DNA from: Pagrus major
Lineage: Eukaryota > Chordata > Actinopteri > Spariformes > Sparidae
Direction: 5' to 3'
NCBI RefSeq assembly: GCF_040436345.1
Contig: NC_133220.1
Location: 4,702,436-4,766,435 of the forward strand
Length of the DNA stretch: 64,000 bases
Position 1 is the stretch's first letter. Every line of letters starts with the position of its first letter. Both the position numbers and the translations under genes were made by a program. Below are positions 1,000 to 4,860 of this stretch, piece by piece. Below the pieces are notes generated by a model that saw only the letters and a program-made list of their open reading frames with translations, had not been told where the DNA came from and made no database searches.

Positions 1000-1308
1000 A
1001 AGTCCTGCAACGAGGAGACCTCAGGTGAAGAAACAAACATGTTCAAACTTGAACTTGACTCAAATTTCTAACAATGCATCCTCATCCTCATACTGCAATA
1101 ACTCAATCAAATATGTGCAATTATCTCGTCCTTTAACAAAGCAATTCTGCTGTTTAACGGCCAATCATCACTGCAGAGGACACATTTATTGTTACTCTGC
1201 AAACTTTACAGAGTTTTCTTTAAACTCATGGATTTATTACTCAAACCAGCCTCATAGGACTGTATTTTACTGCCTCACTCTTATCGGGAACAAAGTGATG
1301 CCAGGTGA

Positions 1309-1810
1309 TAATTGTACAAAAACTCCAAACCACAAAGACAAGAGTACTACTGCAAAGGCCAACAAGGTGGAATAAAGCCATGAAAGTGTAAAATTCGTGG
1401 AGTAAACCTTTAAGGAGAGCTGTGGGATCTATCGTGTCATAACTATACACACTGTCAATGGTGTCACATGACGTTTTAAGCACATGTAGCGGTGTCTGTA
1501 GTGTTTTTTTTAGTTCATTGACGGTTGAATTCATGTATAAAGTGATTGTATTTACATTCAAGTGTTGTTATTCAAAGTATTCAAACAGAGATCAAGTGTT
1601 CATTACTTGTGTTGTGTCAGTGACTCAGTTTTGTCATCCGGTCTGTAAACTAATAAATGTCTTCATTTTTAAAAATGGATGTTTTCAAAAATGCTTTTAC
1701 CTTAAAACTCATTTTATTCTGTTTTTCTTGTACATGAGCTCATTTCAATTAACCGTCTAGTTTGTAGATTATAAGGGAAACTACTGGCTGAACTGGAATA
1801 CGCATATTGA
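1309..1810 (+). repeat. 3' flank of first TRIM gene, copy A of a local duplication
   Basis: This stretch downstream of the first TRIM gene aligns by eye with 3355-3940. Shared blocks include ACTGCAAAGGCC, a long block around CTTTAAGGAGAGCTGTGGGATC, and the end block GGGAAACTACTGGCTGAACTGG. Copy B has an extra stretch of about 95 bases near 3395-3475. AATAAA motifs at 1371-1376 and 1652-1657 could serve as polyadenylation signals for the gene ending at 999, which makes this plausible 3' UTR. The stretch from 1000 to 1308 shows no homologous partner in the window. Confidence 0.8.
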
Positions 1811-3010: not shown

Positions 3011-3108
3011 ATGTGAGTTTTACTGAAAACACGACTTGAAGTAAAAGTATCAGTGTGGAGCCACGAGGAAGAGACTGTACCGGCTCGCTGTGTTTTCAGC
3101 AGGAGAAA

Positions 3109-3408
3109 ATGGACTCACATACAGAGGAGGATCTCTCCTGTCCTATCTGTCAGGACGTCTTTAAAGACCCTGTCGTCCTGTCATGCAGCCACAGCTTCTG
3201 TAAACACTGTCTGCAGAACTGGTGGACAGACAAACAGATACAGGACTGTCCAATGTGTAAGAGAAGATCATCAAAAGATCATGGACTGTTTTTCAAGATG
3301 TGTGAGGACATCTCACTGAAGGAAAAGACTTCAGCAGTCCCACAGACTGCAGAGATAATTGTACAAAAACTCAAAACCACAGAGACAAATATTGTTTATC
3401 AAACCTAA
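3109..3408 (+). CDS. Truncated, RING-only TRIM35-like protein
   Basis: The ORF encodes 99 residues from the ATG at 3109. This start matches the paralogues, which begin [14 protein letters not shown] and MASVSEEDLTCPVC; an ATG at 3055 is in frame but has no counterpart. A complete C3HC4 RING is visible at residues 11-50 (CPIC, CSHSFCKHC, CPMC), followed by the family's RRSSKDHG-type linker. The protein then diverges and stops where full paralogues have B-box, coiled coil and SPRY. The last 18 or so codons (from about 3355) come from sequence homologous to the 3' flank of the first TRIM gene (1309 onward). Everything between RING and 3' flank is therefore missing. It could be a decaying pseudogene or a short RING-only E3. 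A TTTTCAG acceptor lies just upstream (about 3094-3100). No stop or frameshift interrupts the RING. Confidence 0.6.
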   Translation: MDSHTEEDLSCPICQDVFKDPVVLSCSHSFCKHCLQNWWTDKQIQDCPMCKRRSSKDHGLFFKMCEDISLKEKTSAVPQTAEIIVQKLKTTETNIVYQT

Positions 3409-3940
3409 TGTCTCTACTGGTGATCAATTTGAGTAGCTCCACCAAGTTTACACTTAGGTCTTGGGGAGAACGACTGCAAAGGCCAAAAAAGCAGAATAAA
3501 GCCATGAAAGTGTAAAATTGGTGGCGTAAACCTTTAAGGAGAGCTGTGGGATCTACCGTGTCATCATAACTATACACACTGTCAATGGTGTCACATGACG
3601 TTTTAAGCACATGTAGCGGTGTCTGTAGTGTTTTGTAGTTTGTTTTTTTAGTTCATTGACGGTTGAATTCATGTATAAAGTGATTGTATTTACATTCAAG
3701 TGTTATTCAAAGTATTCAAACAGAGATCAAGTGTTCATTACTTGTGTCAGTGACTCAGTTTTGTCATCCGGTCTGTAAACTAATAAACGCTTCATTTTTA
3801 AAATTGGATGTTTTCAAAAATGCTTTTACCTGAAACCTCATTTTATTCTGTTTTCCTTGTACCAGAGCTCATTTCAATTAACCGTCTAGTTTGTAGATTA
3901 TAAGGGAAACTACTGGCTGAACTGGAATAAGCATAATTAT
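3355..3940 (+). repeat. Copy B of the TRIM 3' flank
   Basis: Homologous to 1309-1810 (see that entry), starting at the shared GATAATTGTACAAAAACTC. Its first 54 bases are read as the C-terminal codons and stop of the RING-only ORF. AATAAA motifs at 3495-3500 and 3782-3787 correspond to those of copy A. Confidence 0.8.
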
Positions 3941-4709
3941 GTTCATATTACCTGAAACTGTTGTTTCCGTCATGTTGCACCGTGTTACAGAACAGACCAG
4001 GAGAAACACCGACTTCTTCAGAAAGCCTTTGGGGACAACTGCAGTTTGTACAAATGAGGTTCACTTCCCACATTTTTAAAGGATTCGTGATGTTCAACTC
4101 TGAAAGTCAACAAACTCTCACCTCATCAGAAAGTCTGTTCATTCACCAGTTTATTAAATATTTACATGACAAAGCGGAGACGCAGATTCTACAAGTGAAA
4201 CAGAGTCGATGAGAATCACGCAGGCAGCATTATGAGCTCCGTCTATTGTACTTGAAACAAAACAAATCGTCACACAGAAAAGTTTTCAGATAATTTATTT
4301 TGTACAGTAAAACAGAGGTTCAGAGGCTGCATTAATTCACTGAGTGGCTTTGTGGAGGACACAGGGGGGGGGACAGATTTACACACACCCAGGATGTTAC
4401 GAACCATTTCTCAGCGCTCTTTTGGTAATTGAGTATATTACAAAGAAGGACGATCGATCAACTTTGCAGTCGATCGCGACAAATTGTCTGATACGTGATG
4501 CCATGAAGACGTGAACTGTTCACCAGCGATGACTCGATGCAGATAAAATAAATTTTGGGGGGGGGTGCGTTCAAGAACGCCACAACTCTCTGACACAAAC
4601 TTCCACCACAAGATTCCAGATGTGGGAAAATCTGTCACACAATTAGTTTCTACCACATCGCCAACTAAAAAAAGGCATTTTTCTCCAGGAATAAACATAG
4701 TATATACTC
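3941..4709. other. Intergenic, no gene seen
   Basis: Only short ORFs without family resemblance. Contains two G-runs (near 4364-4372 and 4557-4565). It separates the RING-only TRIM from the convergent CYC1 3' end. Confidence 0.6.
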
Positions 4710-4715
4710 TTTATT
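4710..4715 (-). terminator. CYC1 polyadenylation signal
   Basis: TTTATT on the plus strand reads AATAAA on the CYC1 strand, about 146 bases after the CYC1 stop. It is the first canonical signal downstream of the stop. Confidence 0.7.
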
Positions 4716-4860
4716 TATCTACCTCCTCTTAGTAAAGGCATGTGTGTTTGTCAGCTGTTCCGTGTCCGTTATGATCGCGGTCATGTGAGCGTTGTGGGGT
4801 CGCTGAACGCAGCCCTCTCTGGTAGGTTTTAAGCCCAGGTAGGGGTGTGTTTGTATCCGT

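Follow-up and report, generated by a model that had tools for sequence, protein, structure and literature searches.

In zebrafish, a transcribed allele of the TRIM-family gene ftr39 carries a 2-bp deletion and is described as encoding "only a RING domain" (van der Aa et al. 2009, PMC2657112), and btr31, a recent duplicate located beside btr32, is reported to have retained the RING but not the B-boxes or the coiled coil, which a rearrangement removed (Boudinot et al. 2011, PMC3137616). A survey of common carp includes TRIM proteins that have only some of the family's domains (PMC10048487), and the young TRIM duplicates described in primates include pseudogenes, some of which are expressed (PMC3228819). 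Here a RING-only TRIM locus is described from Pagrus major (assembly GCF_040436345.1, contig NC_133220.1, positions 4,702,436 to 4,766,435 of the forward strand). This stretch of 64,000 nucleotides (43.6% GC, zero N), hereafter the window, was analyzed as a whole and contains four TRIM genes, partial or whole: copy 1 at its start, the RING-only open reading frame (ORF) downstream of it, and the paralogues P3 and P4. Judged from the sequence, the RING-only locus probably goes back to tandem duplication of a class IV (PRY-SPRY) TRIM gene and one internal deletion in the duplicate, and is probably now a remnant under little or no selection, maybe still transcribed.

The retained RING and the missing TRIM domains

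The RING-only ORF spans 3109-3408 on the + strand and encodes 99 amino acids. Its first half (3109-3258, + strand) specifies the N-terminus and an intact C3HC4 RING at residues 11-50, with zinc ligands at residues 11, 14, 26, 28, 31, 34, 47 and 50. The Pfam search scored the ORF at 44.9 bits with zf-C3HC4 (cut-off 21) and 48 bits with zf-RING_UBOX, above the cut-off of that model, and residues 11-50 agree with the published TRIM RING signature C-x2-C-x11-16-C-x-H-x2-C-x2-C-x7-74-C-x2-[C/D], as given in PMC3228819. These two results bear out the intact C3HC4 RING claimed in a first-pass annotation of this DNA. The initial 156 coding bases were 80.1% identical to P3 (18915-20312, - strand) and 82.7% identical to P4 (22497-23882, - strand), the intact full-length paralogues used as comparison sequences. 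A sequence search of the Protein Data Bank (PDB) returned RNF8 as the top match (E 5e-12) followed by TRIM69 and TRIM39. Structure prediction from a three-row alignment gave a mean predicted local distance difference test score of 39.5 and was uninformative on the fold.

The B-box, coiled coil and SPRY had been reported as lacking, in agreement with the Pfam search of the ORF, which gave no B-box, coiled-coil, PRY or SPRY match. The B-box2 signature was found neither in the ORF nor in the three + frames of approximately 3265-4800, and the PRY-SPRY (B30.2) domain of class IV TRIM was absent from the ORF by both Pfam and tblastn. P3 and P4 each contain RING, B-box, PRY and SPRY. For the coiled coil, tblastn alignments of the RING-only copy with P3 (residues 1-80, 3109-3336) and P4 (residues 1-75, 3109-3321) stopped at 3336 and 3321, with no Pfam TRIM_CC match; the TRIM_CC model also failed on full-length P3, so that its silence on the ORF means little alone, and it gave 25.5 bits on P4, below the cut-off of 30.

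Downstream on the + strand of the window, tblastn with P3 and P4 as queries yielded no TRIM fragment that scored better than E 0.008. Candidate B-box or SPRY exons were sought window-wide and rejected: beyond the known TRIM loci the matches were weak (E at least 0.008), nearly all to the SPRY tail (residues ~400-463), and were taken for HT-type simple repeats. Splicing of the RING into such exons, raised by the first-pass annotation, found no support at the level of DNA, where the best match (E 0.008) was among those taken as simple repeat. Relative to its parent gene the RING-only copy is disabled by the loss of the B-box, coiled coil and PRY-SPRY, though the remaining ORF is open.

The junction with a probable former 3' untranslated region

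Copy 1 (1-999, + strand, stop codon 997-999) encodes a coiled coil and PRY-SPRY, as identified with Pfam PRY, SPRY and TRIM_CC and by tblastn with P3 residues 139-461. It is truncated by the start of the window, and its RING and B-box are expected before the window. The coding region is followed at 1000-1806 (+ strand) by a putative 3' untranslated region (UTR) or 3' flank, of which 1307-1806 is common to the RING-only copy. The blastn search revealed the homology in two pieces. Positions 3354-3388 matched 1307-1341 with 33 of 35 bases identical (94%, E ~1e-9), and positions 3466-3935 matched 1342-1806 with 91.6% identity over 479 columns (E 0.0). The alignment of 3355-3940 with 1309-1810 noted earlier is real homology. 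AATAAA motifs occur at aligned places: those at 1371 and 1652 in copy 1 correspond to 3495 and 3782 in the RING-only copy. Because they recur in this way, the shared DNA is most simply read as TRIM 3' UTR rather than as unrelated non-coding DNA. On the + strand of the RING-only copy, 3354-3388 would then represent codons derived from former 3' UTR, and 3466-3935 the remaining shared 3' UTR or flank.

The two matched pieces adjoin at 1341/1342 in copy 1, so that the intervening 77 bp (3389-3465, + strand) are either extra in the RING-only copy, by insertion, or lost from copy 1 by deletion. This segment, with no counterpart in copy 1, carries the last codons of the ORF and the stop (3406-3408). 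The claim that the codons and stop from about 3355 lie in DNA homologous to that downstream of copy 1 accordingly holds for the codons within 3354-3388 and fails for those from 3389 onward and for the stop. Sequence comparison aimed at the source of the segment gave just short weak matches. One of these pairs 3439-3455 with an imperfect inverted counterpart at 3508-3524 (17 nt, 94%, E 0.046); one arm falls inside the segment, and the pair could be the trace of a small inverted-repeat element.

Excluding gaps, the 3' flanks of the two copies differed at 17 of 456 aligned bases and were separated by 5 gaps of 1-11 bases. The mismatches between 1342-1806 and 3466-3935 were unevenly spread, with 8 in the first 80 aligned bases, 1 in the next 218 and 8 in the last 158, a pattern noticed post hoc; gene conversion or constraint may blur dating from these flanks. 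Tandem flanks this similar, in part near-identical, are what misplaced haplotypes in the assembly could also produce. However, these differences, together with the 77-bp segment and the unlike sequence adjoining each copy, make an assembly artefact, the caution attached to the first-pass annotation, highly improbable.

Between the RING and the junction, 3259-3353 (+ strand) was assigned by shuffle tests and tblastn to a putative diverged TRIM linker of the kind that connects RING to B-box, with homology detectable to ~3320-3340 and the breakpoint at or before 3354. The DNA of 3283-3353 aligned to the P4 linker with a score reached by 0 of 500 shuffles and to the P3 linker with a score reached by 2 of 500, compared with 63 and 57 of 500 in the reverse-strand control. 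The last 32 nt alone were not significant on the + strand (405 of 500 shuffles for P4, 167 of 500 for P3) and scored slightly better on the reverse strand (19 and 17 of 500), a result ascribed to the near-palindrome CTGCAG. Linker homology can be followed to ~15-30 nt from the junction, and the RING seems to be followed by the diverged linker and then, within ~15-30 bases, by former 3' UTR.

Origin of the locus and selection on the ORF

The RING and the shared 3' flank are each placed where a TRIM gene would have them, and the content that lies between them in P3 and P4 is gone. From the RING, the homologies and the missing domains, which are observed, we infer a deletion and its direction, the UTR status of the flank and little or no selection. 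A class IV TRIM gene would first have been duplicated in tandem. A single internal deletion would then have extended from the linker, just ahead of the B-box, into the 3' UTR to ~307 bases beyond the ancestral stop, taking out the B-box, the coiled coil, PRY-SPRY and those ~307 bases. Left over would be promoter-side sequence with splice-site-like signals, the RING, the linker and the rest of the gene's 3' UTR, poly(A) motifs included, and any translation would proceed from RING to linker, through 35 bases of former UTR and into the 77-bp copy-specific segment with the stop. The outcome would be a birth-and-death remnant, possibly still transcribed.

The first-pass annotation had proposed either an internal deletion or an unequal exchange. 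In the latter, a P4-like RING would have been joined to a copy-1-like 3' UTR by exchange between two unlike TRIM genes, an event favored by tandem copies in the same orientation. The RING is indeed slightly closer to P4 than to P3, and the body of copy 1 is closer to P3 (83.9% identity) than to P4 (78.7%). However, the difference in the RING amounts to 4 of 156 bases, judged to be within chance, exchange takes more steps than a single deletion, and the copy 1 RING that would tell the two apart lies outside the window. Exchange is the less simple reading and is considered quite improbable, while the deletion is supported.

Several results weigh against a deletion remnant under little or no selection. 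The copy 1 RING is also what would date selection after the split. The linker homology, significant in DNA, is not significant in protein (scores reached by 87 and 76 of 1000 shuffles). The RING is without a stop, frameshift or lost zinc ligand, all 8 ligands being kept. When all of the flank divergence was placed on the RING-only copy, a simulation of neutral decay retained an open ORF in 2.5% of runs, and one with the zinc ligands and the initial Met in 1.1%. Finally, the ratio of nonsynonymous to synonymous substitution rates (dN/dS) between the RING-only copy and P4 was 0.36, with an interval (0.14-0.98) just under 1, although most of that change probably predates the deletion.

With half of the flank divergence on the RING-only copy, the same simulation ended with an open ORF in 15% of runs; in 10% the zinc ligands and Met were all retained as well. 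Its rates, 17 substitutions and 5 indels per 465 bases, were those of the flank alignment, and every indel was treated as disabling; these assumptions are rough. Because the ORF survives neutral decay intact at a frequency of 10% or 1%, depending on the assumption, its openness is weak evidence of function; the chances of neutral retention would be higher if the deletion occurred later than the duplication. None of the eight amino-acid replacements unique to the RING-only copy falls on a zinc ligand (chance 0.26). The dN/dS of the RING was 0.61 (0.25-1.59) with P3, compared with 0.27 (0.10-0.71) between P3 and P4; these values come from 52 codons, too few for a decision. The dN/dS comparison with intact paralogues suggested by the first-pass annotation thus yields values that are not clearly low. 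Changes unique to the RING-only copy comprised 3 synonymous and 13 nonsynonymous, near random expectation (0.21 to 0.73), those unique to P3 4 and 10, and those unique to P4 6 and 4, respectively. Since the flanks differ so little, most of the changes specific to the RING-only copy probably predate its split from copy 1 and so do not decide the question of selection.

Two putative 5' UTR introns precede the ORF on the + strand, their splice sites ranked by simple scans, the donors by site frequencies. The first (2204-2839) has the donor CAG/GTAAGG, ranked 4 of 63991, and the acceptor TTTCTCTCAG, ranked 24 of 4252 AGs. The second (3013-3099) ends 9 nt before the ATG and has the donor AAT/GTGAGT, ranked 31 of 63991, and the acceptor TTTTCAG, ranked 248 of 4252 and outscored by AGs at 2900, 3154 and 3189. 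An intron end like this one is visible by eye just ahead of the RING ATG of P3, and no such acceptor is visible before the ATG of P4. These signals make transcription of the RING-only gene plausible. In the spliced model, with a start at 2000 assumed, five upstream ATGs each begin a short frame that closes before the main ATG. A longer N-terminus encoded by the modeled 5' exons was considered and rejected: the frame upstream of the ATG stays open over 44 codons, 41 of them in exon 2 and the other 3 in exon 3, yet it starts after a TGA and contains no ATG of its own.

A small RING-only protein might have been kept by selection because a free RING may occupy E2 enzymes or self-regulate TRIM signaling, for example as a competitor. 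Such a protein would be in line with the intact C3HC4 signature and 8 of 8 zinc ligands, with the good donor, one good acceptor signal and retained poly(A) motifs, and with the transcribed RING-only ftr39 allele reported in zebrafish (PMC2657112). Its tail, however, would stem from UTR, the five upstream ATGs lie in the modeled 5' UTR, and pairwise dN/dS is not clearly low. Moreover, the coiled coil is the means by which TRIMs pair, and the usual dimer contact is lost with it. A functional gene is on balance unlikely, and still more doubtful is a fixed, infection-inducible protein of 99 amino acids, with a tail born of 3' UTR, selected as a regulator of neighboring TRIM ligases. Of the two fates suggested by the first-pass annotation, the pseudogene is favored by the loss of the B-box, coiled coil and PRY-SPRY, and for competition with full-length TRIMs no evidence was found. 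The locus is regarded as an ordinary birth-and-death remnant that has a low probability of being functional.

Surroundings of the locus and known parallels

Just beyond the end of the shared flank of copy 1 (1806) lies a perfect 27-bp inverted repeat (1823-1849 and 1883-1909) with a loop of 33 nt. RNA folding of the region 1815-1915 is predicted at ~-59 kcal/mol, and Rfam gave no hit there at gathering thresholds. Directly adjoining the inverted repeat, on the promoter side of the RING-only gene, is an exact direct repeat of 30 bp (1908-1937 and 1985-2014). After the RING-only ORF follows a cytochrome c1 gene on the opposite strand, identified by Pfam Cytochrom_C1 in 3 of the 5 minus-strand stretches tested, the other 2 matching nothing. 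P3, for which TRIM72 was the best match in the PDB sequence search, may begin in an in-frame upstream exon that would lengthen its N-terminus (- strand, 20312 and upstream); the candidate, read by eye, runs ATG TCT ACT ... CAACAG/GTAGGA, then CACTCAG/AGAGAAGATGG. Across the window, Rfam reported 0 families at gathering thresholds and the tRNA scan 0 genes.

Read in this way, the RING-only locus offers a clear example of domain loss in tandem TRIM duplicates and shows that a gene can draw a new C-terminus from its own 3' UTR. Expression and conservation of the short ORF, if demonstrated, would make a RING-only regulator of TRIM immunity testable, and only then would the locus gain greater importance. 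Within the window, the closest comparison is with P3 and P4, which resemble the RING-only copy in the first 156 coding bases (80-83%) and in a linker alignable as DNA, whereas they retain the B-box and PRY-SPRY. The young primate TRIM duplicates are likewise recent, but a fusion of RING to 3' UTR is not among the cases described in the part of that article drawn on here (PMC3228819). As presented in PMC3137616, btr31 is similarly a class IV fish TRIM duplicate near its relative that lost B-box and coiled coil and retained the RING; unlike the present copy it kept B30.2, gained a transmembrane exon and has expressed sequence tag support. The ftr39 allele, as reported in PMC2657112, is also a fish TRIM-family product reduced to a RING domain, for which transcripts were found, but it arose by a 2-bp deletion, whereas in the RING-only copy a large internal deletion would have fused linker to 3' UTR. 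By analogy with these cases, the RING-only copy fits as a further example of the known pattern of fish TRIM truncation, reached by a different mutational route.
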